DNA of 64,000 nt from Hymenobacter ginkgonis (GTDB lineage: Bacteria; Bacteroidota; Bacteroidia; Cytophagales; Hymenobacteraceae), in assembly GCF_009755225.1 (NCBI RefSeq), contig NZ_WQKZ01000003.1, positions 62,001 through 126,000 of the forward strand, in the 5' to 3' direction. The position numbers were made by a program, and so were the translations under genes. This document shows positions 35,593 to 52,591 of this stretch, one piece after another (position 1 is the stretch's first letter; each line of letters opens with the position of its first letter). Below the pieces are notes generated by a model that saw only the letters and a program-made list of their open reading frames with translations, ran no database searches and was not told the origin of the DNA.

Positions 35593-36147
35593 CTAATTAG
35601 CTGATGTAGCAGGCGTGGCTGGTGCTGTTGGCGCGGCCGGTGCAGCGGGCTGCTGGCGGCGGGCGTCTTCGGCTAGGTAGAAGGCCATTTCCTGCTGGTA
35701 GGGTTGCAGGTTCCAGCCGGGCCTGGCGCGGGCAACATTCACAGCTGCTTCCTGAATAGCAGTGCGCTGCTCGGGCGAGCAGACCGAGCCGGTAGGGCTG
35801 GCCAGCATGGCGGCGTGGCAGCGCTCCAGCTGGGTTTCGAGGCTGGTAATTTGCTCGGCAGCTTGCTTGGGCAGCTTGTCGGCCGGCGTGCGGTGCATCA
35901 CCAGTTCATTGGGCCCTGCGGGGGCTGCGGCGGCCAGCACGGCGGCTTGCTGGTCGGCGGCAGTCTTGGCGTTGGCAGCTTTAGCGGCTTCTATCTGCGC
36001 GGGCGTGGCTTTGTGCTTGAGGGCCGCGCTCGTGCCAACTCGCACGCCTAACCCAATAAGATTAACTAACGCACCTGCTTGAGCTTTGGCCTCTTGAGCG
36101 GCGCTTATACTGAGTAGAAATCCTAAAGAAAGTACTAATTTTTTCAT
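35593..36147 (-). CDS. Hypothetical exported Ala-rich protein
   Basis: 184 residues with a signal peptide (MKKLVLSLGFLLSISAAQEAKAQ). The mature protein is Ala-rich and helical: a short hydrophobic LVNLIGLGVRVG, then a coiled-coil-like AEQITSLETQLERCHAAML, and one Cys pair that could form a disulfide. The tail is low complexity (Ala, Pro, Thr). No family is recognised. It ends at the hairpin shared with the alpha/beta hydrolase gene. Confidence 0.65.
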   Translation of the reverse strand: MKKLVLSLGFLLSISAAQEAKAQAGALVNLIGLGVRVGTSAALKHKATPAQIEAAKAANAKTAADQQAAVLAAAAPAGPNELVMHRTPADKLPKQAAEQITSLETQLERCHAAMLASPTGSVCSPEQRTAIQEAAVNVARARPGWNLQPYQQEMAFYLAEDARRQQPAAPAAPTAPATPATSAN

Positions 36148-36327
36148 ACTGCGTACTGAATTTTGCGTCTGATTGAGTGTTACATGAAACGTAGCAGCAA
36201 GATATAGGAAAAGAACTGCACCGCTCGCACTCGCATAACCGCGCCCGCCCGTAGCTGATACCCGCCACCCTGGTTGGCGAAGGCTGCGCGCGGGCTTTTT
36301 ATCAAACGCAAAAACGCATGTGCCTAC

Positions 36328-37569: not shown

Positions 37570-37587
37570 AAATACTTAGCAATACTT

Positions 37588-37595
37588 CAAAGATA
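37588..37595 (-). promoter_or_regulatory. -7 promoter box of sbcD
   Basis: CAAAGATA on the + strand is TATCTTTG on the coding strand, an exact TAnnTTTG match 18 bases before the ATG. The nearest TTG upstream has a short spacer (13 bases). Confidence 0.45.
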
Positions 37596-37774
37596 CCAAC
37601 CGCCTTGGCAACCAGTAAGCCGGGCTAGTGGCAGCCAGCCCCAGGTTTTGCGCCGGCAGAAGGAAGCATTTGATGGTCAGCCAGCCAAATAATTCGTAAG
37701 CAAACTACTGGCTGCGGCCCGTCGGCAGCGGCACCGTTGCCTTGCCTTACTCCCTCATTTCACAGCTTAGCTTT

Positions 37775-38134
37775 ATGAATACGCGCACTCTTCTTGGCGT
37801 CGCTTGCCTGGCATTGGCCAGCACTTTCTCGGCCCAGGCACAAACACCTACGGCCGGCACCCCGCGGGTGGCTGCGCCGGGCGCCACGCCCGTATCCGCG
37901 GCTGGCACGGGCACCAGCTTGCCCAGCGCCATTCCGCCCGGTATGGTGCCCGCCAGCGCCACTACCCCCACAAGCACCAGTACTACCGGGCCGCTGTACC
38001 CCGATGGGGTGCCTACCCGAAACGTGGAGGGCGGCACCCAGCGCGCCGACCAGCCCCGAAGCGGAAACCCCGCCGTCACGGGTGCACAGCCAACCAAGCG
38101 CCTGAACAAGCGCCGCACCACTGACCGCCCTTAA
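37775..38134 (+). CDS. Small secreted Thr/Pro-rich protein
   Basis: 119 residues. A signal peptide (MNTRTLLGVACLALASTFSAQAQ) is followed by a low-complexity body rich in Ala, Thr, Pro and Gly, and the end reads KRLNKRRTTDRP, a short basic tail. No fold or family is recognised. The next gene on the strand encodes a similar protein: both have a signal peptide, a Gly/Thr/Pro body and an RR-T...RP tail, so they are likely paralogues. A hairpin follows the stop codon. Confidence 0.6.
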   Translation: MNTRTLLGVACLALASTFSAQAQTPTAGTPRVAAPGATPVSAAGTGTSLPSAIPPGMVPASATTPTSTSTTGPLYPDGVPTRNVEGGTQRADQPRSGNPAVTGAQPTKRLNKRRTTDRP

Positions 38135-38141
38135 CAACGGG

Positions 38142-38182
38142 GCCAAACACGCGGCTCGTACTGCCCAAGCCGCGTGTTTGGC
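38142..38182 (+). terminator. Hairpin after the Thr/Pro-rich gene
   Basis: GCCAAACACGCGG (38142-38154) pairs with CCGCGTGTTTGGC (38170-38182), a 13-bp perfect stem eight bases after the stop. It lacks a long T-run, so termination strength is uncertain. Confidence 0.6.
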
Positions 38183-38471
38183 TTGCTAGGCAGCCGGGCC
38201 CTGCAACCACGCCAGGCAGCCGCCCACGCGAGGGGCAGGGCAGTAAATGGAGCGATTTAATCACTAGTTTTTCATGCAAAACTGTAGCGTCAATAAACTG
38301 CTGATTAGCAACGTGATGCGTATTAAGGAGGGTAGGCTGTCTTTAGCCTGTCGCAATTTTTTTTGTCTAGTAAAGCCAGACTAGCCGCCGAGTTGTGCGT
38401 AAACCAGCCTCGACCGGCAGGCTTTTTAGGTCTGTTGCCTTTTACTCGAACTCCACTTAATACAGCTAGTT
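38183..38471. other. Intergenic region before the second Thr-rich gene
   Basis: With the hairpin on its left, this is a gap of 337 bases. It contains short A/T runs near 38345-38370 and no recognised gene or clear TAnnTTTG box. Confidence 0.5.
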
Positions 38472-38882
38472 ATGAAAACTATCAGCATCCTTGGTGCCGC
38501 CCTGCTTGGGCTCGCCAGCACGTCAGCTTTTGCGCAAGTAGTAGTTGCTCCAGGTTCGGCTACTACCCCCATCAACGGCGCTGGCACGGTAGCACCCGGC
38601 CAACCCAACACGGTGGGCACTAACCCCGCCGGCACCATGTCGACGGGTGTGGGAGTGCCAATTGGCACTTCGCCCAGCACGATAAATACGCCAACCGGCA
38701 TTCCTGGCGGCGCAGGTACCAACACGGGTACCATTGGCACCGGCACCCTAAATAACGGGACTATCAGCAACGGTACGCTCGACAACGGCACCCTGCGTTC
38801 GACCCAGCCAGCGGGCGTAACTACCCCCACTGGTGGCACGCGCCGCGCCACGAATACCCGCACTACTACCACGCGCCCCTAA
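38472..38882 (+). CDS. Small secreted Thr/Gly/Asn-rich protein
   Basis: 136 residues. The signal peptide is MKTISILGAALLGLASTSAFAQ. The mature chain is built of Thr, Gly, Asn and Pro with short imperfect repeats, for example NGTISNGTLDNGTL at about residues 94-107. The tail is basic (RRATNTRTTTTRP). It resembles the protein encoded 340 bases upstream in plan and tail. The composition suggests an extended or flexible surface protein; no function is known. A strong terminator hairpin follows. Confidence 0.6.
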   Translation: MKTISILGAALLGLASTSAFAQVVVAPGSATTPINGAGTVAPGQPNTVGTNPAGTMSTGVGVPIGTSPSTINTPTGIPGGAGTNTGTIGTGTLNNGTISNGTLDNGTLRSTQPAGVTTPTGGTRRATNTRTTTTRP

Positions 38883-38907
38883 GTACGGGCTGGCGTAGTG
38901 GCCTACT

Positions 38908-38955
38908 AAAAAGCGATGGCTACCCCTGCACTGCAAGGGTAGCCATCGCTTTTTG
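38908..38955. terminator. Bidirectional terminator hairpin
   Basis: AAAAAGCGATGGCTACCC (38908-38925) and its exact complement (38938-38955) make an 18-bp stem with T-runs on both strands, between convergent genes. Confidence 0.85.
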
Positions 38956-38973
38956 GTGTTTACGGCCTAGCAG

Positions 38974-40848
38974 TTAGCCGATTTGCTTCCCGCTCATGGC
39001 CTGTTTGATAGAGATGTTCATCACGCGCTCGGCAAAGGGCCGGGTGAGCTCATCGAGTTCGTCCATGCGCTTGAGAATCAGGTCGCGGTCGTTGCCGGTG
39101 AGTGCTTGGCGAAGCAGGTCGGTTTGAGCCCTGGTGCTGGTTACCTCAGTGGCTTCCAAATGCTCGGCGTTCTTCTTCAGGAAGCGCTCGACCTGATAAA
39201 GCAGCTGCTCGGCGGCGGTGCGCGCCTCGATGAGCAAGCGAGCAGCCACGTCCTGCTTGGCATTGGTGAGCGAGTCCATCAGCATTTGCTCCACCTGCTC
39301 GTCGGTGAGGCCGTACTGGGGTTTGATATCGACCTGCTGGCGGGTGCCCGAACGCAGTTCGATGGCCTCGACGCGCAAAATGCCGTCGGCATTAAGGAAG
39401 AAATTGACGTCGATTTTAGGCAAGCCCGCCGGCATGGCCGGAATGCCGCTCAGGATGAATTCGCCCAGCTTGCGGTTTTCCTGTACCAAGTCGCGCTCAC
39501 CCTGGTACACGCCGATTTTGAGATTTACTTGCCCATCAACGCTCGTGGTGTACTGGCGGCCGGCCTTGGTCGGAATCTTTGAGTTGCGCGGAATAATCGC
39601 GTCCATCAGCCCGCCCAGCGTCTCAATACCCAGCGTCAGGGGCGTTACGTCGAGCAGCAGCACGTCGCGGCGGTTGCCAGCCAAAATATCTGCCTGAATG
39701 GCCGCGCCCAGCGCCACCACTTCGTCGGGGTTGAGCGAATTGTTGGCGGGCTGCCCAAAGAACGTGCTCACACTTTCGAACACCAGCGGCACGCGGGTTG
39801 AGCCACCCACGAGCAGCACGGCGTTGATGTCGACGGGCGTCAGCTTGGCATCGCCCAGCGCCTGGCGGCACGAGGCCAGCGTGCGCTGCACCAGCGGCTG
39901 AATAAGGCCCTCAAACTCGGCGCGCGTGAGCGTAACGACGTGCACCGCCTCGTGCTCATCCAGCAGTTGCGTCGTGAAATCGTCGTGCTGGCTGAGGTAG
40001 CGCTTGGCCATTTCGGCGGCCAAGCGCAGCTGCTGTTGCAGCGCCGGGATGGCCTGGAAGGAGGGGGGTAGGGCAAACTTCGTTTGCCAGTGCTCGCCCA
40101 CGGCACGGTCCATGTCGTCGCCGCCCAGCCATGTGTCGCCGTGGGTGCTCAGCACTTCAAAAATGCCCTGGTGCAGGCGCAAGATGCTAATATCGAAGGT
40201 GCCACCGCCGAGGTCGTACACGGCCACGGTTTTTTCTTCGCTGGGGTCGAGGCCGATGCCGTAGGCCAGGGCCGCCGCCGTGGGCTCATTTACAATGCGC
40301 AAAACTTCGAGGCCCGCGAGGCGGCCCGCGTCGCGAGTGGCTTGGCGTTGCGAGTCGTTGAAATACGCCGGCACCGTAATAACGGCGCGGCGCACCGGCG
40401 TTTTGAGGGCGTGCTCGGCGCGGTGGCGCAGCTCGCTCAGGATGTCGGCCGACAGTTCGATGGGCGAGTAAAACCGCTCGCCCACGCGCACTTTCACAAG
40501 GCCCTCCGAGTCGTCGTCAATCACTTTATAGCCGAGCTGGCCGGCGTGCGCGCCCAGGTCGCGGTAGCTTTTGCCCAGCAGGCGCTTCACCGAATAAATG
40601 GTGTTGGCGGGGTCGAGGGTCAAAAACTCTTTGGCCTCATTGCCCACAAGGGGGGTAGCCCCATCGGCCGGAAAGTGCACCACCGAGGGCACAATGGTGC
40701 CGCGCCCCAAATCGTTGATGGCCGCCGGCTGGCGAGTTTCGGGGTGCACGTAGGCCACCAGGCTGTTGGTGGTGCCCAAGTCAATGCCCACAATAAGCTC
40801 TTCCTGCTGCACCGCGCCGGTGGCGAGGTTGATGGCGATTTTAGCCAT
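38974..40848 (-). CDS. hscA: Hsp70-family chaperone, HscA type
   Basis: 624 residues. After a 20-residue leader ([18 protein letters not shown]) comes the ATPase domain with [59 protein letters not shown] and [13 protein letters not shown]. The substrate-binding domain contains [17 protein letters not shown] and KIGVYQGER. The length and leader fit HscA, which helps transfer iron-sulfur clusters from the IscU scaffold. However, no hscB, iscU or fdx gene is adjacent, so general DnaK-like activity cannot be excluded. A hairpin terminator follows the stop. Confidence 0.85.
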
Positions 40849-41162
40849 AATATATACTGAGTAGCTGCGCGGGCGCCGCCAAATAAAACCGGGTAAAAGG
40901 AGCCGCGGCCCCGGTCCGCAAAAGTAGGCCTACCCGCTCATTTAGGCCGGGGCAGCGCGCACACCAGGGGTAAGCCAGCGGCCCGGTAAAAAGTTACCTG
41001 GTATAATATTCGGGCATATTCAGAAAATGGTAAACCGCCACCGGGCCGGCCGCGTAAGTGAGCTAAAATTGAGCAGGTAACTGCTTTATTATCAATAAGA
41101 ATACTTTAAGGTAGTTTTCTTATTTTAGCTTGCATTTTCCCACCATACCCCCTTTTCATTTC
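40849..41162. other. Divergent intergenic region, hscA / DUF4331 gene
   Basis: 314 bases. A TACTTTTG box for hscA lies at 40919-40926. The right part (41070-41135) is AT-rich and includes TAGTTTTC near 41112, a one-mismatch -7 box for the DUF4331 gene. No extra gene is supported. Confidence 0.5.
40919..40926 (-). promoter_or_regulatory. -7 promoter box of hscA
   Basis: CAAAAGTA on the + strand reads TACTTTTG on the coding strand, matching TAnnTTTG, about 71 bases before the ATG. No -33 TTG is evident. Confidence 0.4.
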
Positions 41163-43292
41163 ATGAAAAAAATGTTTACGCGTCCCGCCCTTCAAGTAGC
41201 GCTAGCTGCCGCCGCCGTGGGCGGCCTGCTAACGTGGAGCGGGCATACCAGCCACCTGGAGGCTTCCTCGCACCGCGAGGCCCCGCTCATTGCCGACGAC
41301 CCCCTGGCCGATAACACGGATGTATATGCCTTCCGTGACCCCACCAACTCGGAAATGATTAATATCATTGCCAACTACATCCCGTTTCAGCTGCCGCAGG
41401 GCGGACCTAATTACTACCACTTCGGGGAGAATATTCGCTACGAAATTCATATTAAGAACGACGCCACCACGACCGGCGACGACATCACGTACCGCTTTAC
41501 CTTTACGCGGACCAACGAAGACCCAACCACGCACTTTAATATTCGGCTGGGTAAGGAAAACCTAAAAACGACTTATAAGCTGGAGCAAAGCATCCGCGGG
41601 GCCGCCTTCACCACGCTAGTGGCAGCCGGGGTAGTGCCTGCTTATAACGTTGGGCCTCGGGCCATCAGCGGCGCGGCTGGCTTGGGCGCGGCCAGCTACG
41701 ATGCCCTCATAACGAGTGCCATCACGCCGGCTGGCGGGGGTAGGGTGTTTTGCGGCCCCGTCGACGACCCTTTCTTCGTTGATATTGGCGCTATCGAAGA
41801 CTTGGGCGGCGTGCGCCCCCTGAACTCCCGCGATGGTTTGGCGCGTAAAAACGTCAATACTATTGCGTTGCAAATTCCGATTTCGGTGCTGCAGAAAGCT
41901 GGCAAAACCGGCGCGCAGGCCGCCAATATTCTGGACCCGGACTACGTAATCGGGGTGTGGGCTTCGGCTAGCCGCCCCTCGCTGCGGACGCTGGTTGAGC
42001 CCGGCACCAACGGCGCTACTACGGGCGCCCAAACCGTTTCGGGCAACTACGTGCAGGTATCGCGCCTGGGTATGCCGCTCACCAATGAAGTGGTAAACCC
42101 AGTTGGCAATAAAGACGAATTCAACGCGCGCACGCCTTACACCGAAAATGCAGCGTTCCAAGCCAACTTCGTAAACCCTGAGCTGGCGCTGTACATGGCG
42201 GATAATACGCCGAAGAACGGGGCGTCTCCCAAGCCCGCTGGCCAGACGTACTACGGCGAAGCTGTTCCTGGTTTTACCAACTTGCGCATTCAGTCAAAAT
42301 CGCTGGCGGGCCGTACCGGGCTGCCAACCAATGGCTTCGACTTCCGCAACGGCGCCGATGGCCTGTCGGTGCTATCAACTGCCCAGCGTGCGGGTACCGT
42401 GTTTGCTGATGCTACCTTCGGCCCTATTCTGCTGCAAGCCGGCAAGCCCCGCTCCGTCGACCTGCTGCCTATTTTCATGACCGGGGTGCCCAACGCCATT
42501 CCGTATCAGTTGGCAACTGGCAAAGCGGGCAACCCGCTGGCCGCCGGCAAGCCCTTCATCAACAACTTTTTGCCCGTAATCGGCGATATGCTGCGCCTGA
42601 ATATGGCCGTGCCGACTACCCCCCGCAACTCGCCCGACTTCAGTTCGGAAGGCTTGCTGGCCGCCGCCAAGCTGGGCCTGACGGACACCCGCTATAACAC
42701 CAGCGCGGCCCTGCAATTTATCCCGAACATGGATGGCTTCCCGAATGGCCGCCGCCTGGAGGATGATACACCGCGCATTGAGCTGCAAGCAGTTAGTGGC
42801 GTGGTGCTGGCCGCGATAGGGCTGTGGTACGATGATTTTAGCGCCACGGCTACCGACCCGGTTACGCCGCAGCTGGGAGGTGTATTGAGCTTCACAACGG
42901 GGGTAGAGAAGAATGACACCACGCTCAAAGCAGCCTTCCCTTATGTGCAGGCGCCCTGGAGCGGCACCAAAGCCCAGTTGGTAGCCTTGGCGCAATTCGC
43001 TCCTAGCCCTACCCTAGGCCTACTGCCGGTGCTGAGCACCGCAAGCGCCTATCCCAACCCCTCAACCGGCAACACGACGCTGCACGTTGAACTGCGCGCT
43101 GCTACCAATTTGAACGTGCAAATCCGCGATGTGATGGGCCGCCAAGTGGCAACTATTGCCGCCAAGGATTACCCCGCGGGCGTAACCGAAATTCAGTGGC
43201 AGCCCAACGCTTCGCTAGTGCCTGGCCAGTACATTGCCTCGCTCTACGCTGGCAAAACGCTCATTCAATCGCTACGCATTGAGCGCCAATAA
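41163..43292 (+). CDS. Secreted DUF4331 protein with T9SS sorting domain
   Basis: 709 residues from ATG 41163. A signal peptide (about 1-30) is followed by ASSHREAPLIADDPLADNTD, the hallmark start of DUF4331, and the family continues to about residue 615. Acidic and aromatic pieces include YAFRDPTNSEMINIIANYIP, LDPDYVIGVWA and NFLPVIGDMLRLNMA. The last ~80 residues form a type IX sorting domain (AYPNPSTGNTTLHVE ... RIERQ), so the protein is sent to the cell surface or medium. DUF4331 has no assigned biochemical role. A hairpin after the gene separates it from the co-oriented TPR, HupE-like, His/Cys-rich and TonB-receptor genes. Confidence 0.88.
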   Translation: MKKMFTRPALQVALAAAAVGGLLTWSGHTSHLEASSHREAPLIADDPLADNTDVYAFRDPTNSEMINIIANYIPFQLPQGGPNYYHFGENIRYEIHIKNDATTTGDDITYRFTFTRTNEDPTTHFNIRLGKENLKTTYKLEQSIRGAAFTTLVAAGVVPAYNVGPRAISGAAGLGAASYDALITSAITPAGGGRVFCGPVDDPFFVDIGAIEDLGGVRPLNSRDGLARKNVNTIALQIPISVLQKAGKTGAQAANILDPDYVIGVWASASRPSLRTLVEPGTNGATTGAQTVSGNYVQVSRLGMPLTNEVVNPVGNKDEFNARTPYTENAAFQANFVNPELALYMADNTPKNGASPKPAGQTYYGEAVPGFTNLRIQSKSLAGRTGLPTNGFDFRNGADGLSVLSTAQRAGTVFADATFGPILLQAGKPRSVDLLPIFMTGVPNAIPYQLATGKAGNPLAAGKPFINNFLPVIGDMLRLNMAVPTTPRNSPDFSSEGLLAAAKLGLTDTRYNTSAALQFIPNMDGFPNGRRLEDDTPRIELQAVSGVVLAAIGLWYDDFSATATDPVTPQLGGVLSFTTGVEKNDTTLKAAFPYVQAPWSGTKAQLVALAQFAPSPTLGLLPVLSTASAYPNPSTGNTTLHVELRAATNLNVQIRDVMGRQVATIAAKDYPAGVTEIQWQPNASLVPGQYIASLYAGKTLIQSLRIERQ

Positions 43293-43337
43293 AAGGCTCA
43301 TACCCACGTAGCTGAATGCCAGCGCCTGGTGAAAAAC

Positions 43338-43382
43338 AAGCGAGCCGCTGCTTAGCTATCCAAGCTAGCGGCGGCTCGTTTG
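43338..43382 (+). terminator. Imperfect hairpin after the DUF4331 gene
   Basis: Arms around 43338-43357 and 43363-43382 (CAAGCGAGCCGCTGC against GCGGCGGCTCGTTTG) pair with a few mismatches. A short T-run follows. It may terminate or attenuate transcription into the TPR gene. Confidence 0.5.
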
Positions 43383-43453
43383 CTTTAGCTTCGCAAGCCG
43401 GTGAGTGTTTCGGGAAATCACTTTCCCTACCCTAGATTCAGGTACCTCATAAC

Positions 43454-44794
43454 TTGCTTTCCGTGCAAAAAAAACTATACCCCGCGTTGCTACTGGCTTT
43501 TGGCTTGGCGGTAGCGGCCATTCTTTTCTTCAAAAAACCAGGTGCGCCTACCCTGCCCGAACCCAAAGACCGGGTGGGCCGCCTGGCGCTGGGCGGCGAA
43601 TGGGTAAACACCAAAGCCGCCATGCAAGGCCTACTGGCTAAACTGCGCACTGACCCCAACGACCAAAAAAGCCGCCTGCTGCTGGCCGAAGCCTATATGC
43701 AGGAGGGCCGCGTGACCGGCAACCACCCTTACTACGACGCCGCAGCTATGCAACTGCTGCAGGAGGTAATAAAAACCGACCCCGAGAACTTCGAGGCGCT
43801 GTGCTGCCAAGCCTCGCTGAGCCTTACGCAGCACCATTTTTCGCAGGGCTTGGCTCTGGCGCAGCAAGCCCAGGAAATCAACCCGCAGAGTGGCTATGTA
43901 TATGGTTTGCTGACGGATGCCAACGTGGAGCTGGGCCGCTACGATGAGGCCGTGAAGATGGCCGACAAAATGAACCAGGTGCGCCCCGACTTAGCCGCTT
44001 ATGCCCGGGTAAGCTACTTACGCGAAATATTTGGCGATGTACCCAGTGCTATTCAGGCCATGGATATGGCCGTGAAAGCCGGCTACCCCGGCCTAGAGCA
44101 AACCGAGTGGAGCCGCGTGGCGCTGGGCCACCTCTACGAGGTAAGCGGCCACCTGGCCGAAGCCGAGGGCTACTACCAGCAGGCGCTGGCTATGCGCCCT
44201 AACTACGCCTATGCCTTGGCTGGGCTGGCCCGCGTAGCCGCCGCCCGGCAAGACTACCCCACGGCCATCAAGGACCTGAACCTGGCCCGCGCTACGGTGA
44301 AGGACTATGCTTTCACCGACGAATTAGTAGATGTGTACCGGCTCAACCACCAGCCTGCGGAAGCCACGAAAATGGCCCGCGAATCGGTGGCGATGCTCGC
44401 CGAAGCCGCCCAGCAAGCCAACGACAACGAACAGCTGGGCCACTACACCGACCGCGAATTGGCCTACGCCTACCTCAAAACCGATGAGTTGGACAAGGCC
44501 CTGGAACACGCCAAAATTGAGTACGCCCGCCGCCCCGACAACATCGACGTGAATGAAACCCTGGCTTGGGTGCACTACAAGCGCGGCGACTACCCCGAGG
44601 CCCAGAAATACATGCAGGTGGCCCGCCGCACCAACTCGCAAAACCCCGTGCTGCTCTGCCGCGCCGGCCTCATTCTCACCAAAACCGGCAAAGTAACCGA
44701 AGGCCAAGCCCTGATTATGAAAGCCTTGAGCACCGCGCCCTACCTCAACCCCGAGGTAGAAGCCGAGGGTAAGAAAATGCTAGCGGCCCGTTAA
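43454..44794 (+). CDS. Membrane-anchored TPR-repeat protein
   Basis: 446 residues, starting at TTG 43454 (GTG 43463 is an alternative). One membrane segment at about 9-26 (ALLLAFGLAVAAILFF) anchors a soluble domain in the periplasm. From about residue 70 to the end there are about 8-9 tetratricopeptide repeats, for example LLEVIKTDP-like and AEAEGYYQQALAMRPNYAYA units with the alternating A-L-Y pattern. TPR arrays bind partner proteins. Only 2 bases separate its stop from the ATG of the HupE/UreJ-like gene, so the two products likely act together, perhaps as scaffold and transporter. Confidence 0.85.
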   Translation: MLSVQKKLYPALLLAFGLAVAAILFFKKPGAPTLPEPKDRVGRLALGGEWVNTKAAMQGLLAKLRTDPNDQKSRLLLAEAYMQEGRVTGNHPYYDAAAMQLLQEVIKTDPENFEALCCQASLSLTQHHFSQGLALAQQAQEINPQSGYVYGLLTDANVELGRYDEAVKMADKMNQVRPDLAAYARVSYLREIFGDVPSAIQAMDMAVKAGYPGLEQTEWSRVALGHLYEVSGHLAEAEGYYQQALAMRPNYAYALAGLARVAAARQDYPTAIKDLNLARATVKDYAFTDELVDVYRLNHQPAEATKMARESVAMLAEAAQQANDNEQLGHYTDRELAYAYLKTDELDKALEHAKIEYARRPDNIDVNETLAWVHYKRGDYPEAQKYMQVARRTNSQNPVLLCRAGLILTKTGKVTEGQALIMKALSTAPYLNPEVEAEGKKMLAAR

Positions 44795-44796
44795 GC

Positions 44797-45483
44797 ATGG
44801 CGTTCGTTTATAAGCAGTTAAAAAAAATACGCGTAGGGCGCGTTGCTTGGGCACTAACTGCCCTGCTACTAGCCCTACCCGCCGCGGCCCACGTCATCGA
44901 CGCTGACTTGAGCAAGCTGTCGCGCACCGAAATTTTTGGGACGTATATCCGGCTGGGATTTACCCACATCATTCCGCTGGGCTTCGACCATATCCTCTTC
45001 ATTATCAGCCTCTACATTCTGGAGCCGCGGCTCAAGCCAGTGCTGTGGCAGGCCACGGCGTTCACGGTGGCACACTCCATCACGCTGGGGCTGGCCATGT
45101 ACGGCATCATCAAGCCGCCGGGCAGCGTGGTCGAGCCCATTATTGCGCTGTCTATCCTGTTTGTGGCGCTCGAAAATATTATCACTACCAAGCTGAGCCC
45201 GTGGCGGTTGGCCATCGTGTTTGGGTTTGGATTGATTCATGGCATGGGCTTCGCCAGCGCGCTTACCGGGCTGGGGCTGCCTAAACAAGACTATTTTGGC
45301 TCGCTCATTTCCTTTAATGTGGGGGTCGAGCTGGGGCAGATTACCATCATTCTGCTTTGTTGGGTACTCATTGGCCGCTGGGCCGCCGACCGGCCCTGGT
45401 ACCGGGCGCGGGTGGTGGTGCCGGTGTCGGTGGTTATTGGCCTGGTGGCTGCCTACTGGACCCTCGACCGGCTACTGGCCTGA
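44797..45483 (+). CDS. HupE/UreJ-family membrane protein
   Basis: 228 residues with a signal-like N-terminal segment ending at AAAHVIDADL and about six further membrane helices. The family marks are YIRLGFTHIIPLGFDHILFI, the EPIIALSILFVALEN stretch and FGLIHGMGFASAL, all with His in or near helices, followed by FNVGVELGQITI. This pattern fits the HupE_UreJ_2 branch. HupE and UreJ proteins are linked to nickel or cobalt uptake, but this branch is uncharacterised and no urease or hydrogenase gene is nearby. The conserved His/Asp/Glu in membrane helices make metal transport plausible. Confidence 0.85.
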   Translation: MAFVYKQLKKIRVGRVAWALTALLLALPAAAHVIDADLSKLSRTEIFGTYIRLGFTHIIPLGFDHILFIISLYILEPRLKPVLWQATAFTVAHSITLGLAMYGIIKPPGSVVEPIIALSILFVALENIITTKLSPWRLAIVFGFGLIHGMGFASALTGLGLPKQDYFGSLISFNVGVELGQITIILLCWVLIGRWAADRPWYRARVVVPVSVVIGLVAAYWTLDRLLA

Positions 45484-45597
45484 GCTAGCCGGCCGCCGCG
45501 GGGCACTAAGCTATTACTCTCCGCCACTGGCCGATTGAGGAGGGGCTGCCGCTCCGGCCACCGTAGTTTGGCTGCAATTAGTTGGCGCTTACTTTTT

Positions 45598-45990
45598 ATG
45601 CTTCGTCCGTTTCTCACGCTGCTGCTACTGCTCAACTACCTGCTGGTAGTGGGGGTAGGGCTGCTCGTGAGCCGCCCCCCGGAGCCCCGCTACACCGCCG
45701 CGCACCCCTACGTGCATAGCCCCCAGTGCCAGCAGCAGCACTACCTGCGCCTCGATTGCTTCGAGCACTGCAACGGCGACCAGCACGAAATCAGGCACCG
45801 GCCCACCGGCACCGGCCTGCACTACTTGGCTCAGCTTAAGGGGCTAGACGTGCATTTTCCTACCCCCCCGGTAGCGGCCCTGCTAGCTACCTGTGCCTGG
45901 CAGCCAGCTCCCCGGCACCCGGCGCCCACCCACCTGGCCCTGCCCCTGGGGCAAGGTGGGCGCGATTATCCCCCGCCCCAACGCGGCTGA
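45598..45990 (+). CDS. Small His/Cys-rich membrane-anchored protein
   Basis: 130 residues from ATG 45598. A single hydrophobic segment (LTLLLLLNYLLVVGVGLLV) at about 6-24 is followed by a periplasmic-looking part unusually rich in His (about ten) and Cys (four). The core is HPYVHSPQCQQQHYLRLDC at about 36-54, then FEHCNGDQHEIRH. The Cys/His spacing would suit metal or heme binding. No named family is recognised. It lies between the HupE/UreJ-like gene and the TonB receptor gene on the same strand, and a weak TAGTTTG sequence upstream might be a promoter. Confidence 0.65.
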   Translation: MLRPFLTLLLLLNYLLVVGVGLLVSRPPEPRYTAAHPYVHSPQCQQQHYLRLDCFEHCNGDQHEIRHRPTGTGLHYLAQLKGLDVHFPTPPVAALLATCAWQPAPRHPAPTHLALPLGQGGRDYPPPQRG

Positions 45991-46129
45991 AACTGCCCAT
46001 CCTCCCCGGCCGCCCGGCCGGGGCCACCCCCGCGCGGCTGCTGAAGCAGGCACGGCGGGCCGTTTTAGATTTTATAGGAAGCTCGTGCCGGCCTCTAAAA
46101 GAGGCGGCAGGCTTCGCAATAGCGTTGGG

Positions 46130-48454
46130 ATGCACGTAACTTATTCACTACGATTTTTAGAAAGGCGCTGGCGAGCGTTAGTGCTGCTGGTCAGCACGTT
46201 ATTTACGCTGCAAACGGCGGCGGCCCAGCGCCCGGCCGGGTTGCGGGGCACCGTGGCCGACTCGCTTTCGGGCCGGCCACTGGCGGGCGTAAGCGTAGGC
46301 CTGGTGGGCCAGCCTGGCGGCACGGACACCGATGCGCTGGGGCAGTTTCGCCTGGCTGGGCTGGCCCCTGGCACCTACCAGCTGCGGCTGGGCGCGCTGG
46401 GGTATAGGTTGAAAACTAGGGGGGTAGTGGTAGTAGCCGGCGAAACACGCGGCTTGGCTATCACTTTGGCCACCACTAGTCTTAACCTAGCCGAAGTAAC
46501 CGTGAGCCAGCCCCGCGACCCTAACCAGACGCTGGCGGCCATCTCGCACATCGACCAGACGCTGCGGCCCCTCAATTCGGCCCAGGACTTGCTGCGGCTG
46601 GTGCCTGGCCTCTTCATTGCGCAGCACGCGGGCGGTGGCAAGGCCGAGCAGATATTCGTGCGCGGCTTCGATGCCGACCACGGCACCGACTTTTCGGTGA
46701 CTATCGACGGGCTGCCGGTGAACATGGTGAGCCACGCCCACGGCCAGGGCTACGCCGATTTTCACTTCGTGATTCCCGAAACGGTGGAGCAGCTGAAGGT
46801 GTACAAGGGGCCATATACGGCGCGCTTCGGCGACTTTGCCACGGCCGGTGCGGGCGAGTTTTCGACCAAAACCAGCCTCGACCGCAGCCAGGTGAAGCTG
46901 GAAGTGGGGCGCTTCGACACCCGCCGGGCGCTGGTGCTGCTCGACTTGCTGGGTTCGCACCACCTGTTGTCGAAGAAAGCGGAGAGCGCCTATGCAGCTG
47001 CCGAATACAACTTTACCAATTCGTACTTCGATAACCCGCAGCACTTCAAGCGCTTCAACGGGATGCTGAAATACACCGGCCAGCTCACCGACAATACCTC
47101 GCTGACGCTGCTCGGCTCGCACTTCAACTCGCGCTGGGACGCCAGTGGCCAGGTGCCCGAGCGGGCAGTAGCCGAAGGCATTATTTCGCGCTTTGGCAGC
47201 CTCGACCCCAGCGAGGGGGGTAGCACCAACCGCACCAATGCCTACGCTGTCCTCGCCACGGCCCTACCCCACGACGCGGTGCTGAGGCAGCAGGTGTACT
47301 ACTCGCGTTACAATTTTAACTTGTATTCCAACTTCACTTTTTTCAAGAACGACCCCGTCAACGGCGACGAAATAGACCAGACCGACCACCGCAACCTCTA
47401 CGGCTACACCGGTACCTACGACCGCGATAACCGCTTGGGCAGCCGCAACTTGCACTCAACTTTCGGGCTAGGTACGCGCATCGATGATTCGGCGCTAGGC
47501 CTGCGCCACGCCGTGCAGCGCCAGGTGCTGGACACCGTGAGTACGGGCCGTCTTTACGAGCAGAATAGTAACGCCTACCTCGACGAAACCCTGGAGCTAA
47601 CCGACCGCCTGACGGTAAACGCCGCCGTGCGGGCCGACTTGTTCGTGTTTCAGTTTCGGGGGCAGCGGGCCGATTCGGCGGGCGGGTTCCTCCCCCTGAG
47701 CGGGCGCGTGACGCGGGGCCGGGTGTCGCCGAAGCTCAACTTCTATTACCAGCTTTCGCCGGCGGTGCAGCTGTTTGCGCGCTCGGGGCTGGGCTTCCAC
47801 TCCAACGATGCGCGGGCCGTGGTGCAGGGCAGCGGCGCGTTCAACGCCTTGCCGCGAGCCCTTGGCTACGAGGGGGGTAGCACCTTCAAGCCCGTGCCGA
47901 GCCTGGTGGTGAACGCGGCGTTTTGGGCGCTGCACCTGCAAGATGAGCTGGTGTACTCGGGCGACGAGGGCACGACCGAAAGTGTGGGCCCTACCCAACG
48001 CTTTGGCTTCGACGTGTCGGGGCGCTACCAGCTCACGGGCCGCGTATTCTTCGATGCCGACTTCAACTTCAGCCACGGCCGCCTGGTAGATGCGCCGGCG
48101 GGTGAGAACTACATTCCGCTGGCGCCAACCTTCACCAGTATTGGCGGCATTACGCTGAAGAATCCGAATGGTTTGAGCGCCAGCCTCCGCTACCGCTACA
48201 TCGACAGCCGCCCGGCGCAGGAAGACAACGCCATTCGGGCGCGCGGCTACTTTCTGGTCGATGCGGTGGCTAGCTACACGCAGCCGCGCTTCCAGCTGGG
48301 CGCCACCGTCGAAAACCTGCTGAATGTGAAGTGGAACGAGGCCCAATTTGCCACCGACAGCCAGCTGCGCGGCGAAACTACTTCGGTGAATGAGCTGAAT
48401 TTTACGCCCGGCACGCCGTTTTATTTAAAGCTGAATGCCAGCGTGTTCTTTTAG
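46130..48454 (+). CDS. TonB-dependent outer-membrane receptor
   Basis: 774 residues from ATG 46130. The signal peptide ends near TAAAQ. Residues about 32-115 are a carboxypeptidase-regulatory-like beta-sandwich (RGTVADSLSGRPLAGVSVGL). The plug domain (about 125-240) has FVRGFDADHGTDFSVTIDG and the unusual NMVSHAHGQGYADFHFVIPE, then YKGPYTARFGDF. The 22-strand barrel follows and ends in Phe (LKLNASVFF), as outer-membrane barrels require. Receptors of this kind import scarce ligands with TonB-ExbBD energy. The His-rich plug loop and the genes upstream suggest a metal or metal-complex ligand; this is inference. Confidence 0.9.
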   Translation: MHVTYSLRFLERRWRALVLLVSTLFTLQTAAAQRPAGLRGTVADSLSGRPLAGVSVGLVGQPGGTDTDALGQFRLAGLAPGTYQLRLGALGYRLKTRGVVVVAGETRGLAITLATTSLNLAEVTVSQPRDPNQTLAAISHIDQTLRPLNSAQDLLRLVPGLFIAQHAGGGKAEQIFVRGFDADHGTDFSVTIDGLPVNMVSHAHGQGYADFHFVIPETVEQLKVYKGPYTARFGDFATAGAGEFSTKTSLDRSQVKLEVGRFDTRRALVLLDLLGSHHLLSKKAESAYAAAEYNFTNSYFDNPQHFKRFNGMLKYTGQLTDNTSLTLLGSHFNSRWDASGQVPERAVAEGIISRFGSLDPSEGGSTNRTNAYAVLATALPHDAVLRQQVYYSRYNFNLYSNFTFFKNDPVNGDEIDQTDHRNLYGYTGTYDRDNRLGSRNLHSTFGLGTRIDDSALGLRHAVQRQVLDTVSTGRLYEQNSNAYLDETLELTDRLTVNAAVRADLFVFQFRGQRADSAGGFLPLSGRVTRGRVSPKLNFYYQLSPAVQLFARSGLGFHSNDARAVVQGSGAFNALPRALGYEGGSTFKPVPSLVVNAAFWALHLQDELVYSGDEGTTESVGPTQRFGFDVSGRYQLTGRVFFDADFNFSHGRLVDAPAGENYIPLAPTFTSIGGITLKNPNGLSASLRYRYIDSRPAQEDNAIRARGYFLVDAVASYTQPRFQLGATVENLLNVKWNEAQFATDSQLRGETTSVNELNFTPGTPFYLKLNASVFF

Positions 48455-48624
48455 AACCTGCGCGGGTTAGGTTATATGTTTGAGAAAACAAGACTTACGC
48501 AGCTGGGCGGTGTGGTATTACGAATTACCCGCAGGGCTTCGCAATGCCACACCCTTGAGGGATGTAAGCCCTAAAAACAGCAATTTCTTATTGCTACCAG
48601 CTGGCGCCGGCACTAGCTGGCCAG

Positions 48625-48632
48625 TAATTTTG
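48625..48632 (+). promoter_or_regulatory. -7 promoter box close to the start codon
   Basis: TAATTTTG matches TAnnTTTG and ends five bases before ATG 48638, which would give a leaderless or nearly leaderless mRNA. No -33 TTG is visible. Confidence 0.4.
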
Positions 48633-48637
48633 GAAGG

Positions 48638-49456
48638 ATGAGAAACCGGATAGTTCGTTGGGGAGGGGTAGGCGTGGCGTTGTTGGGGCTGCTGCCAGGG
48701 CTGAGCGGCTGCCAGAGCACGGGGGCCTCGGCGGGCCCGTTGGCCAGCCAGCGGCAGCCTACCCCCCCGCTGCCCGACTCGCTGCGCCTGACGCCCGTGC
48801 CGGAAGTAGCTGGCGTGCCCGACACGCTGCACCAAGCCATTGCGCAGCTGTACCAGGCCTTAGGGCCAGCCGCCGCCGAGCTGCGCCCCGCCGTGCTGGA
48901 GCAAGCCTGCGTGGGCTACCTCACGCTGCACCCCACCGGGCGCATTGAGCGGGGCGGCGTGCTGGCCGTGGCCGACATGGACCTGCCCAACACGACCGAA
49001 CGCCTGTGGGTGATTGATTTGAAAGAAGCTAAGGTGTTGCATCGCAGTTTAGTAGCCCACGGCCAGGGCTCGGGCCATTTGCGTGCCCAGCGCTTTTCCA
49101 ACGCCGAAAGCTCGGCCTGTACCTCGCTAGGGTTTTACCGCACCTCGGGCACGTATAGCGGCATTCATGGCTACTCGCGGCGGCTGCTGGGCTTGGACAA
49201 GGGCCAGAACAGCAACGTGTTTGACCGCTACATTGTGCTGCACGCTGCCGACTACGCCAGCCCAGCCTACGTGCAGGCCACCGGCCACCTGGGCTACAGC
49301 CGCGGCTGCCCAGCCCTGCCGCCCGCGCAGTACAAGGCCATCATCAGCACGGTGCGGGCGGGTAGTATGCTGCTCGTGAGCGGGCCGGGGCTGACGTCGC
49401 GCTGGCTCGATGGGCCAGCGGCGGGGCGGCGGTTTGCGCAGCGCGGCTGGCGGTAG
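48638..49456 (+). CDS. Murein L,D-transpeptidase-like lipoprotein (YkuD_2 family)
   Basis: 272 residues. The N-terminal hydrophobic stretch ends in LPGLSGC, a lipobox, so the protein is probably lipid-anchored. The catalytic region contains VLAVADMDLPNTTERLWVID, SLGFYRTSGTYSGIHGYSRR, YIVLHAADY and GYSRGCPALP with the presumed nucleophile Cys. YkuD_2 members usually read HGADY where this one has HAADY. It probably acts on peptidoglycan cross-links or on lipoprotein attachment in the periplasm. A second, similar gene follows 130 bases downstream. Confidence 0.85.
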   Translation: MRNRIVRWGGVGVALLGLLPGLSGCQSTGASAGPLASQRQPTPPLPDSLRLTPVPEVAGVPDTLHQAIAQLYQALGPAAAELRPAVLEQACVGYLTLHPTGRIERGGVLAVADMDLPNTTERLWVIDLKEAKVLHRSLVAHGQGSGHLRAQRFSNAESSACTSLGFYRTSGTYSGIHGYSRRLLGLDKGQNSNVFDRYIVLHAADYASPAYVQATGHLGYSRGCPALPPAQYKAIISTVRAGSMLLVSGPGLTSRWLDGPAAGRRFAQRGWR

Positions 49457-49587
49457 CGGCGGAATTTTTTTAGTAAGAGCCTCGTTTGGGCTGACCCTGG
49501 CGTTCGCTTCTGTCGTATATTGTTCAACCAACAATTGGCCGCCGCAGTAGCCCGACCTTTTAGAGTATTTCTTTGCCTCGAAAAGTT

Positions 49588-50448
49588 ATGAAAACGCATC
49601 AGCCTCATCACCATACCAGTGTAGTGCAGCGCCAACGCGATGTACGCCGCTCGCGCCGCATGATGCGGCGGGTGCTCCCTTTTGTGGCTTCGCTCTTTCT
49701 GGCTACTCCGTTGGCCGGGCCGCTGCTGAAATCCACGGCTCACCCGCGGGCGGGTGCTGCCACCACAACCAAGGCTGCGGCTACCCCCCTGGCGCGCTTC
49801 GACGCTACCATGCGCGAAACTTTCGACCGCACGGGTGCTGAGCAGCAGGGCTTGCGGTTTGAGGTCTTTCAAAAGGCCATGACGGGCTACCTCAACCTGC
49901 GCCAGGCCGGCCGCCTCGCCAACGACCAGCACCACCTCACGGTGATTGACTTCGACCTGCCCTCGACTGAGAAGCGCTTGTGGGTAATTGATTTGAACAG
50001 TGATAAAGTGGTGTTTCACACCTTGGTAGCTCACGGCCACAACTCGGGCGAGAACGAGGCCACCAGCTTCTCCAACACCGACCAGAGTAACATGAGCAGC
50101 CTCGGCTTCTACGTGACGGGCACGGAGTATGTGGGCAAGCACGGCCAGTCGCTGCGCTTGCAGGGGGTAGATGAAGGCTTTAACACCAATGCCGCTGCCC
50201 GCTCAGTGGTGATGCACGGCGCCGACTACGTGAGCGAGGAATTCATCAAGCAGAATGGTCGCCTGGGCCGTAGCTTGGGTTGCCCGGCGCTACCCCTCGA
50301 CCAGTATGCGCAGATTATCAGCACGGTACACGGCGGTAGCTGCTTGTTCTTGAACAAGTCGAACGCGGGTTACACCTCTAAATACTTGAACCCAGAAATC
50401 GCGATTGCGGCCCTGACAGCGGGCAAGCAAAACGCTTCGAAAAGCTAA
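49588..50448 (+). CDS. Murein L,D-transpeptidase-like protein (YkuD_2 family), second copy
   Basis: About 286 residues from ATG 49588. A His-rich, basic N-terminus (KTHQPHHHTSVVQRQR) precedes a hydrophobic export segment (VLPFVASLFLATPLAGPLL). The catalytic domain has LTVIDFDLPSTEKRLWVIDL, VAHGHNSGENEATSFSN, SVVMHGADYVS and GRSLGCPALPLD, the canonical HGADY and Cys motifs. It is a paralogue of the gene just upstream but without the lipobox, so it is probably anchored by an uncleaved helix or released into the periplasm. A terminator hairpin follows. Confidence 0.87.
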   Translation: MKTHQPHHHTSVVQRQRDVRRSRRMMRRVLPFVASLFLATPLAGPLLKSTAHPRAGAATTTKAAATPLARFDATMRETFDRTGAEQQGLRFEVFQKAMTGYLNLRQAGRLANDQHHLTVIDFDLPSTEKRLWVIDLNSDKVVFHTLVAHGHNSGENEATSFSNTDQSNMSSLGFYVTGTEYVGKHGQSLRLQGVDEGFNTNAAARSVVMHGADYVSEEFIKQNGRLGRSLGCPALPLDQYAQIISTVHGGSCLFLNKSNAGYTSKYLNPEIAIAALTAGKQNASKS

Positions 50449-50470
50449 ACCCGCTGCCCATTTAGCGCGT

Positions 50471-50525
50471 AGCCAGGCTGCCGGCTGCCCATCATACGGG
50501 GCAGCCGACAGCCTGGCTTTTTGTT
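50471..50525 (+). terminator. Rho-independent terminator
   Basis: AGCCAGGCTG (50471-50480) pairs with CAGCCTGGCT (50509-50518), with a nested CGGCTGCCC/GGGCAGCCG stem inside and TTTTTG after it. Confidence 0.85.
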
Positions 50526-50559
50526 GGGGGGTAGGGCCCGGCCCTGCGGTTAGACTCTC

Positions 50560-51213
50560 GTGTTTGTGGCTGATAGTACGACTGATTATCCTGCGCCTAC
50601 CCCGCCTACGGTCGGGCTCTCGCTGGGCGTGGTGACGCTAGCCGGCCTCGTTGATGCCGTTAGCTACTTGGAATACAACCGAGTATACGTTTCCATCATG
50701 AGCGGCAATACCACGGCGCTGGGCGTGGCTGTGGCCAATGGGCAGCATGCGCAGGCCGGGCGTTTGGGGCTGGTAGTGGGGTTGTTTGTGGGAGGCGTGG
50801 TGCTGGGCACTGGGCTGCACCGCGTGGCCCGTCGGCAGCCCGCGTCGGTGGTGCTGGGCGTGGTGGCGGCCTTGCTACTGCTGGCTTATGCCTGGCCGGC
50901 GCTGGCCATCGAGTGCCTTGCCTTGGGCATGGGCATCATCAACGCGTCGGTGCACCAGTTGGGTGGCGTCAACGTCAGCCTCACCTACGTAACCGGCGCG
51001 CTGGTGAAGGCGGGCACCGGCTTAGCCGATTTGCTCAGTGGCCGCCCTGCCTCGCGCGACTGGGCTTGGCAGGCGCTGGGCTGGGTCTGCTTCTTGGCCG
51101 GGAGCTTTGGCGGCGCCCTCATCTGGGCATATTGGGGCCTCGAAACCCTGGTGGCCGCATCTGGCTGCTGCTTGTTGCTGGCGCTGTGGGCCCGGCGGGT
51201 GCCGGTCGCTTAG
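50560..51213 (+). CDS. DUF1275 (YoaK-type) membrane protein
   Basis: 217 residues starting at GTG. About six membrane helices. The family pattern is GLVDAVSYLEYNRVYVSIMSGNTTALG near the start, with GLVDAVSYL and the MSGNT motif, and GIINASVHQLGGVNVSLTYVTG in the middle. DUF1275 proteins are inner-membrane proteins whose function is not firmly known. The gene stands alone between two terminator-like regions. Confidence 0.85.
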   Translation: MFVADSTTDYPAPTPPTVGLSLGVVTLAGLVDAVSYLEYNRVYVSIMSGNTTALGVAVANGQHAQAGRLGLVVGLFVGGVVLGTGLHRVARRQPASVVLGVVAALLLLAYAWPALAIECLALGMGIINASVHQLGGVNVSLTYVTGALVKAGTGLADLLSGRPASRDWAWQALGWVCFLAGSFGGALIWAYWGLETLVAASGCCLLLALWARRVPVA

Positions 51214-51490
51214 CGTCGCTGAGGGGGGTAGGCAACTAGCTAGTGCGGCATAAAAAGGGAATTGCTAAGCGCAAGCGAGAAAGGTGGCAAACCATGGTGC
51301 TTGGCCATGCCTAGAGTTGCTTGCTAGCTGGCCGCGCCGCTTTTTCTCCGCCCACGAAACAGCTGCTTTCCTGCGTGGCCCGGCCTTTTTTGCCCGGCCA
51401 GCCGTTGTAGTTCCGACCTTTGTTCTTCGTGCCGGTATACCTACTGCCCAAGGGCTTACCGGGCCGGGCAGTGCATTTATATAGTTACTT

Positions 51491-52591
51491 ATGTCAACAC
51501 TAAGCACATTTGGGGCTCCGCCAGCGGCGGCATCGTCGCCGTATGCCGCGGTTTTTATCGACTTTGAGAACGTCTATTATTTTCTCAAAAACCACTACCT
51601 CGACCCCCAAGACCCCCACGATTATGCCCTCGACCTCGTGCGTTCGCTGCGCGATACGCTGAAGCGCGAGTTGGGCCTCGACTCGCTGGTGCTCTACGCC
51701 TACGCCGATTTTGACCGCCTGCCCAGTGGGCCGCAGGGCCCGCTCTATTTGATGGGGGTAGACACGCGCAACGTGCTGGGCACCGACCACAAAAACGCCG
51801 CCGATATGCAGCTCTGCATCGACGCGCTGGAGGTGCTTTATACCCGGCCCGACATTGGCACGTTTGTGCTGGTGGCCGGCGACCGCGACTACATTCCGGT
51901 GCTGCAACACCTGCGCCGCCAAGCCCGCCAAGTGAAAGTAGTGGGCTTCCGCGAAAGCGTATCCGGCGACTTGCTGCTGATGCTCGGCCAAGAGCACTTT
52001 CTCGATGCGCGGGCGCTGCTGCCCGCCGAGCGCCTCCAGGCCCTCGAAGAGCACCGCGCCGGCCGCCTGCAACTGGCCGAAGACAAGCGCCGCTTGCGCG
52101 AGCAGGGCACCGCGGGGGTGCAGTCGGCTGCCGCGCGGCAGGCCACGCAAGATATGGCTAGCAGCCCTACCCCCCTGGCTACCTTCGAGGCTGCCGCCCC
52201 AGACAAGGAGGCTCCTACGGCAGCTGGCGCATCTTTTTTGCTGGCTCGCCCGGCCGACCAGCTACCCGACGCTACTCCCACCTTTGCACCCACCCGGCGC
52301 GTAACGCGCCCCGACGAGCGCCGCTGCCTAGAGTTTTTGCTGGAGCAGGTGCAGCGCTACAGCAGCAATATTGCCGTGCCCGAAATCTGGGTAAGCCCGT
52401 TTTTGCGGCGCCTCACCGATGTGCTGCCCGAATTGCCCGACTGGGAGCGCCGCCAGCTGCTGAGCCACCTGCGCGATGCCGGCGCCGTGCGCATCGAAAA
52501 GCGCGAGGGCGAGCCGCACCCGTTCTCCGTTATCATCATCAACTACCAGCACCCCGACGTGCGCGAATTGAATCCCGGCGAGGAGAAGTAG
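51491..52591 (+). CDS. NYN-domain (PIN-like) RNase family protein, LabA-like
   Basis: 366 residues. The NYN domain fills about 15-180: AAVFIDFENVYYFLKNHY gives the first acidic cluster, KNAADMQLCIDALEVLY the second, and FVLVAGDRDYIPVLQHLRRQ the third; these Asp residues form the metal site of PIN-like nucleases. A charged Ala-rich linker follows, with a C-terminal region from about 275 (RRCLEFLLEQVQRYSSNIAVPEIW) that resembles a winged-helix, OST-HTH/LOTUS-like domain. Members are thought to cut or process RNA. No partner gene is adjacent. Confidence 0.85.
   Translation: MSTLSTFGAPPAAASSPYAAVFIDFENVYYFLKNHYLDPQDPHDYALDLVRSLRDTLKRELGLDSLVLYAYADFDRLPSGPQGPLYLMGVDTRNVLGTDHKNAADMQLCIDALEVLYTRPDIGTFVLVAGDRDYIPVLQHLRRQARQVKVVGFRESVSGDLLLMLGQEHFLDARALLPAERLQALEEHRAGRLQLAEDKRRLREQGTAGVQSAAARQATQDMASSPTPLATFEAAAPDKEAPTAAGASFLLARPADQLPDATPTFAPTRRVTRPDERRCLEFLLEQVQRYSSNIAVPEIWVSPFLRRLTDVLPELPDWERRQLLSHLRDAGAVRIEKREGEPHPFSVIIINYQHPDVRELNPGEEK

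Follow-up and report, generated by a model that had tools for sequence, protein, structure and literature searches.

A conserved gene neighbourhood around DUF4331 in Hymenobacter ginkgonis with a possible role in transition-metal acquisition

Five genes lie in a row on the + strand of Hymenobacter ginkgonis (genome size 5.67 Mb), in the order DUF4331, TPR, HupE_UreJ_2, His/Cys protein and TonB receptor, at positions 41163-48454 of the window, by which we mean the whole 64,000-nucleotide stretch of DNA that was analysed. The locus raises the question of whether these genes belong together and, if so, whether they handle a metal. No mention of DUF4331, PF14224 or IPR025566 (the last of which we take to be the DUF4331 entry) was found in open-licence papers, and the same literature held no paper on the set (DUF4331 with HupE; UreJ with tetratricopeptide and TonB). 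The features of the locus are as follows:

41163-43292, + strand: DUF4331 protein with signal peptide and type IX secretion tail, 709 aa (PF14224, E 1.6e-120; TIGR04183, E 6.5e-07)
41265-41273, + strand: predicted mature N-terminus of the DUF4331 protein, Ser-Ser-His (X-X-His), by the (-3,-1) rule; H37 is invariant
43337-43382, + strand: terminator-like hairpin in the gap between the DUF4331 and TPR genes (106-nt RNA fold, -47.3 kcal/mol, z -4.7)
43454-44794, + strand: membrane-anchored TPR protein (TPR_19, E 9.9e-22), which accompanies DUF4331 in relatives
44797-45483, + strand: HupE/UreJ_2 permease, 228 aa (PF13795, E 5.6e-48)
44890-44892, + strand: predicted N-terminal His of mature HupE (LPAAA/HVID, the slash marking the cut; [AG]/H in 66 of 69 orthologues)
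45598-45990, + strand: small membrane-anchored His/Cys protein, 130 aa with 10 His and 4 Cys
46130-48454, + strand: TonB-dependent receptor (PF00593, PF07715 and PF13620, CarboxypepD_reg)
46664-46768, + strand: His-rich plug stretch of the TonB receptor, GFDADHGTD...SHAHGQGYADFHF, a motif found also in TonB genes of related loci

The original prediction of five co-oriented genes of these families stands, as all are present on the + strand. Its finer points were borne out as well, namely a DUF4331 protein with a type IX tail, a TPR gene that ends at 44794, 2 bases from the HupE start at 44797, about ten His and four Cys in the small protein, and a His-rich loop in the receptor plug. The TPR gene has two candidate start codons, TTG at 43454 or GTG at 43463, and the ATG of the receptor is at 46130 (searches were run from 46133). 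Based on the strong hairpin ahead of the TPR gene, DUF4331 may be a transcription unit of its own. An Rfam search of 36000-52000 gave no match, so that no known metal riboswitch is present there, and a promoter scan found one promoter against 2.4 expected. An upstream word, CAAAAGTA, occurred in 21 of 45 chosen loci of the five-gene type but no site could be assigned to a metal regulator, and as the sequences are related and the control was a plain shuffle of them, the word was dropped.

These families do occur together in other genomes. A genome scan with the DUF4331 profile gave 578 relatives, the best 80 of which were taken and correspond to 78 loci; 70 are titled Hymenobacter, they are not independent, and some are clipped by contig ends. 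Among these 78 loci (best 80 of 578 relatives) all five genes are present in 50; taken singly, the counts are 62 for the TPR gene, 60 for HupE, 56 for the TonB receptor and 51 for the small protein, and DUF4331 stands alone in 15. For at least seven of the loci with DUF4331 alone (L110, L111, L113, L157, L158, L162 and L167) another locus with the same strain title has DUF4331 together with at least TPR and HupE. The order DUF4331-TPR-HupE-TonB is kept in five MAG loci of distant Bacteroidota (L155, L163, L166, L168 and L174), and on these two observations co-occurrence of the families is not rare.

In a sample of 296 Bacteroidota genomes, DUF4331 was found in 38, PF13795 in 87 and the TonB subfamily (at E 1e-60) in at least 45; since three candidates per genome were scored at E 1e-60, all counts for the receptor are lower bounds. 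The surroundings of DUF4331, up to 19 kb, were read in 37 other genomes and in the window. In 36 of these 38 loci there was a TPR gene, all of them from a single BLAST cluster; L039 has one as well, found when the shorter locus L010 was searched by tblastn, and in the stretch around DUF4331 of L042 no TPR gene was seen and the next ORF encodes an RsgA GTPase. DUF4331 and the receptor were both found in 25 genomes (a lower bound) and lay within 10 kb of one another in 19 of them, against about 0.1 such pairs expected by chance from arithmetic on single copies in 4 Mb; the exceptions were G033, G126, G130, G158, G178 and G254. In two further genomes, G222 and G203, this receptor adjoins HupE without DUF4331. 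DUF4331 and PF13795 were likewise both found in 25 genomes, and lay within 10 kb in nine (G000, G033, G072, G126, G140, G150, G166, G200 and G280); in 13 of the 38 sampled genomes carrying DUF4331 there was no PF13795 match. The view of all five genes as one unit is not supported: HupE is near in these nine out of 25, and the small His/Cys protein is a Hymenobacter type.

At E 0.001 neither Pfam nor NCBIfam had a family matching the 130-residue His/Cys protein, and in five distant Bacteroidota loci its slot is occupied by another small His protein, with the pattern HxxTVHxExGxxHxHxE and, in four of the five, PPP near the end. A second copy of the His/Cys protein lies ahead of another TonB match in one locus (L106:17523-18394), and a further locus has two copies (L133:19493 and 21590), neither with a match to this TonB receptor. 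Based on these extra copies, the small protein and the receptor may be a pair of their own.

For the comparison across phyla we relied on plasmid records, a non-random sample that includes some megabase replicons; DUF4331 was present in 31 records, and 20 places were inspected, four unannotated ones via their ORFs. When tblastn was conducted with TPR and permease queries taken from the window and from plasmid loci, a TPR gene was found in 16 of the 20 places and a permease in 14. A core of DUF4331, TPR and permease was thus present in 14 places, from Gamma-, Beta- and Alphaproteobacteria, with HupE/UreJ_2, and from Actinomycetota, with NicO. Seven places have the HupE/UreJ permease (Marinobacter, two Pseudoalteromonas, Comamonadaceae, Variovorax and two Lichenicola) and seven a NicO-type permease (five Streptomyces or Streptomycetaceae, Embleya and Nonomuraea). 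By Pfam, the TPR proteins of L176, L178, L179 and L181 were above the cut-off and those of L183 and L184 below it, and NicO was above the cut-off in L179 and below it in L189. Usually the TPR gene is directly 3' of DUF4331 or is set apart from it by a single small gene or by a sortase gene; for L190, the core set goes with a second, neighbouring DUF4331 gene. The Adhaeribacter and Miltoncostaea stretches have a TPR gene and gave no permease match by tblastn, and in that of Adhaeribacter a TonB gene lies upstream. Neither TPR nor permease was matched by tblastn in the four Rhodobacterales places (Sulfitobacter, Paracoccus, Jannaschia and Marinovum). The recurrence of the DUF4331-TPR-permease core in three phyla holds irrespective of any account of metal acquisition.

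The DUF4331 protein is a clear member of its family (403.6 bits against a cut-off of 27, covering 1-421 of 421), and its best segment has 83% identity to a Hymenobacter polaris protein. The type IX sorting tail was recognised by TIGR04183 (29.2 bits, cut-off 23), and the Pfam model for such tails, PF18962, scored 22.8 bits, below its cut-off of 27. In other lineages DUF4331 is found with different export machinery: all four Rhodobacterales genes (L177, L182, L191 and L196) lie among type II secretion genes, and in two streptomycete places a class F sortase gene is beside DUF4331. These three lineage-specific surface routes indicate that DUF4331 is likely extracellular, and each lineage seems to bring it to the surface by a route of its own. 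In Jannaschia the cluster of DUF4331 and type II secretion genes is whole on a 32.5-kb plasmid, which had no TPR or permease match, and a possible role of the Rhodobacterales DUF4331 is that of a dedicated type II secretion cargo.

The predicted mature N-terminus of DUF4331 is a candidate metal site. Signal peptidase cleavage follows the (-3,-1) rule, and a free NH2-X-X-His terminus (ATCUN) chelates Cu(II) and Ni(II). We scanned DUF4331 leaders with a motif in which H-x-[DE]-[AGST]-P and a later D..D.[YF].F were required and the preceding residues were free; the scan omitted, as duplicates, the short loci L001-L030 and L196, and other kinds of N-terminus would escape it. A cut two residues before the conserved His fitted the rule in 141 of 142 distinct stretches, whereas cuts shifted by one residue to either side fitted in 8/142 and 26/142. 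A cut two residues later, which would leave an N-terminal His, also fitted the rule in 123/142 (the ADH forms excepted). Three positions ahead of the His stands Ala in 136, Ser in four and Gly in two, and the predicted cut leaves SSH, ADH or ASH. Similar proportions came from an earlier run in which stretches were separated on fewer residues (138 of 139) and from a set thinned to 51 leaders, which differ from one another at over half of 20 positions and of which 50 fitted. This His, His37 in the window, is the sole invariant His among 26 long-form DUF4331 proteins (kept in 26/26), which were drawn from Bacteroidota, Pseudomonadota and Actinomycetota; Glu39, Asp50, Asp53, Asp213, Glu309, Asp433, Asp534 and Asp535 are also invariant in these proteins. 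We infer from the rule that the N-terminal X-X-His is a putative ATCUN-type site for Cu or Ni.

The fold of DUF4331 gave little guidance to function. For a first model (709 aa; pLDDT 68.6, pTM 0.63) Foldseek gave, at E 0.001, three matches: two were to an ABC transporter (rmsd 18.6 and 19.1 A) and the third, covering 100 columns, was to an Ig-like protein, with further short Ig-like matches after it. A second model, of the core and based on 73 sequences, was better (pLDDT 79.4, pTM 0.86), and a fold search with it returned nothing at E 0.001; its best Z, 5.9, was to Ig domains of antibodies (rmsd 3.1, 113 of 576 aligned). The first eight residues are of low confidence. As the Ig-like resemblance is within the range of common arrangements, we draw no function from it and claim no new fold. 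A profile search against solved structures gave a GH167 tail match (E 0.039) and an alpha-dioxygenase (E 0.96), both of which we take as chance. In 19 loci (families f5, f7 and f23) DUF4331 comes as two pieces, of which the N-terminal part is exported and the C-terminal part has the look of a lipoprotein. Tandem DUF4331 genes, one of about 600 and one of about 1260-1280 residues, are present in Hymenobacter (L143, L147, L156-L159, L161, L162, L164, L167 and L169), and in L143 the longer protein has about 590 residues without a Pfam match ahead of its type IX tail.

HupE and UreJ are the nickel permeases found in hydrogenase and urease clusters, and have an H...DH motif. The window protein belongs to the same permease family and has the same motif. 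It differs in that it fits PF13795 (163 bits, cut-off 24.5) better than PF04955 (35 bits). Unlike those permeases, which lie beside urease or hydrogenase genes, it is away from the sole urease alpha match of the genome, which is on another contig (C1), and no NiFe-hydrogenase match was found anywhere in the genome. Its predicted leader is followed directly by His in 66 of 69 orthologues (the leader ending in Ala in 65 and in Gly in one), a figure read by the sequence rule from a set with many close relatives and at least one genome present twice (L044 is the L108 contig). The three exceptions to [AG]/H are a second copy in L133, in which A/H precedes a longer domain, and the leaderless proteins of L047 and L048. 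Directly upstream of the leaderless HupE of L048 is a DUF6702-cluster gene, as there is just upstream of the HupE of L038, a locus outside the 69 and the cluster member that was scanned by Pfam. In the plasmid places A/H was found at 7/7 HupE starts and at all six NicO-type starts read, those other than Nonomuraea. The window HupE is a candidate transporter of Ni, Co or Cu.

Relatives of this permease with N-terminal metal chemistry have been described as anglerases. In these, N-terminal-His domains fused to HupE/UreJ_2 bind Cu with a Kd of 74 nM and Ni with 220 nM (Ang-1) or Cu with 62 nM (Ang-2), DUF6702 has a particular affinity for Ni, and the N-terminal domains are proposed to capture metal for the permease (PMC12537917, 2025). 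The neighbours given in section 8 of that paper are DUF4198, indigoidine A-like, PfkB, metallophosphatase and DUF916, and DUF4331 is not among them (PMC12537917). Another study describes a HupE/UreJ-like gene whose level goes up with nickel (PMC5557971). The window HupE is like Ang-1 and Ang-2 (PMC12537917) in its predicted mature His start; however, it is 228 residues long with the permease from residue 50, so that it has a short stretch and no N-terminal metal-binding domain between the His and the permease. The proteobacterial HupE of DUF4331 loci, which are 366-406 aa long, have a two-part build similar to that of the anglerases (PMC12537917); in the three that were scanned the permease spans about residues 178-346, with room for an N-terminal domain ahead of it.

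In the TonB receptor both the plug (PF07715) and the barrel (PF00593) were above cut-off, and the plug motif GFDxDHGTD...(S/T)HxHGxGY, with a cluster of the SH(A/G)HGQGY type, is kept across matching loci, with variants in L112 and L129 (SQAHGQGY) and in L046 (THGHGQGYLDLN). Known TonB-dependent receptors for copper and zinc are OprC and ZnuD, to which the window receptor has a likeness in the metal-type residues of its plug. Its similarity to OprC (6fom) reaches E 3e-04 only, and its closest solved structures are themselves weak matches (best E 4.1e-10), so that the ligand cannot be read from them. The equivalog model for copper receptors, TIGR01778, scored 18.4 bits against a cut-off of 472.45.

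We consider that this gene set, which is conserved though uncharacterised, probably captures a metal, for example copper or nickel, on the outside and hands it on into the cell. The notion of a metal-handling unit thus survives in part: the X-X-His of DUF4331, the N-terminal His of HupE and its published Cu- and Ni-binding relatives (PMC12537917) argue for metal handling, whereas the five-gene unit is not supported, nor are import and sensing as established functions. That the set is an envelope-spanning module for transition-metal acquisition is, in our estimation, a little short of an even call, and metal binding by DUF4331, the identity of the metal, the direction and the order of transfer are all putative, as read from sequence. 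In such a module DUF4331 at the surface (by the type IX route here) would catch Cu(II) or Ni(II) via its free N-terminal X-X-His, the receptor with its plug His cluster would carry the metal or a metal complex into the periplasm, the anchored small His/Cys protein would shuttle the metal, the TPR protein would dock the partners, and HupE, its mature chain starting with His, would move the metal across the inner membrane. In the plasmid places one slot is shared by two permease families linked to metal transport (HupE in seven, NicO-type in seven). Weak points of metal acquisition are that the permease is missing in many Bacteroidota and in the Rhodobacterales places, that the NicO loop is reminiscent of an exporter, which bears on the direction, that the leader cut giving an N-terminal His fits nearly as many DUF4331 proteins, and that the DUF4331 fold is without a clear relative. 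A more specific form, in which the X-X-His of surface DUF4331 is a metal catcher feeding a TPR-docked, His-first permease, as a relay of N-terminal chelators used by Bacteroidota, Pseudomonadota and Actinomycetota with their own secretion routes, we regard as possible and rather doubtful. If metal acquisition is correct, DUF4331, a family of unknown function, would be connected with permeases for which metal chemistry at the N-terminus was described in 2025, and would gain a first testable function; the link would give the HupE/UreJ_2 permeases an extracellular partner, and suggests that three bacterial phyla may share an unnamed means of extracellular metal capture.

Metal might instead flow outwards, with the permease exporting metal and, with TPR docking, loading DUF4331 as a secreted metalloprotein, while the TonB receptor takes another substrate or recycles; we consider this unlikely. 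The NicO protein of Streptomyces bears a long His-rich loop, as does the exporter RcnA, and the window TPR protein is just over the cut-off for the cytochrome c maturation domain TPR_CcmH_CycH (43.3 bits against 42), although TPR models frequently match one another's proteins. DUF4331 is also the constant part of the set, found beside type II secretion genes and with no permease match in Rhodobacterales. Outward flow is opposed by the TonB importer that is part of the Bacteroidota set and by the HupE family, which is known for uptake, as well as by the HupE relatives described in connection with permease and accumulation (PMC12537917; PMC5557971).

Less likely still is a module for envelope stress under ECF sigma control, in which DUF4331 would be a surface enzyme or adhesin without a dedicated metal role, and the permease and TonB receptor would be passengers or serve another solute. 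Clusters of ECF sigma and RskA-type anti-sigma factors occur together in 13 of the 38 Bacteroidota DUF4331 loci and immediately ahead of DUF4331 in the two Pseudoalteromonas places, and some loci have SodC or globin genes and, by eye, a glutathione peroxidase-like gene. Against this reading, the two metal-linked permease families in one slot, both kinds His-first, argue for metal. Matches to ECF sigma and an RskA-like anti-sigma were also seen near DUF4331 in L175, L166, L178 and L192. Mycobacterium tuberculosis has a SigK-RskA set with fasciclin proteins, to which there is a likeness in the RskA-type anti-sigma near many DUF4331 loci and in the fasciclin gene near three (L175, L179 and L190); to our knowledge the SigK-RskA locus has no DUF4331, TPR or HupE. 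Fasciclin was rejected as a standing partner of DUF4331, being present in three of 137 stretches, a number that includes the stretch of the query itself. That the five are chance neighbours without common function is very improbable and we count it as refuted, for although the hairpin divides DUF4331 from the TPR gene and parts are lost in some lineages, the genes are co-linear in 50/78 loci (best 80 of 578) and in three phyla, and the receptor lies far more often within 10 kb of DUF4331 (19/25 genomes) than the approximately 0.1 expected.

Several further genes were observed around the set and elsewhere in the genome. Upstream are two short exported-looking ORFs (37742-38134 and 38472-38882) rich in Thr, Pro, Gly and either Ala or Asn. 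The window's genome (G000) has three more PF13795 matches (C22:650557, C34:134600 and C35:123116), two of which are in frames of more than 420 residues. Downstream of the five genes, at 48638-50448, are two YkuD_2 L,D-transpeptidase-like genes, the first of which was matched in 41 and the second in 35 of the 78 loci (best 80 of 578 relatives).
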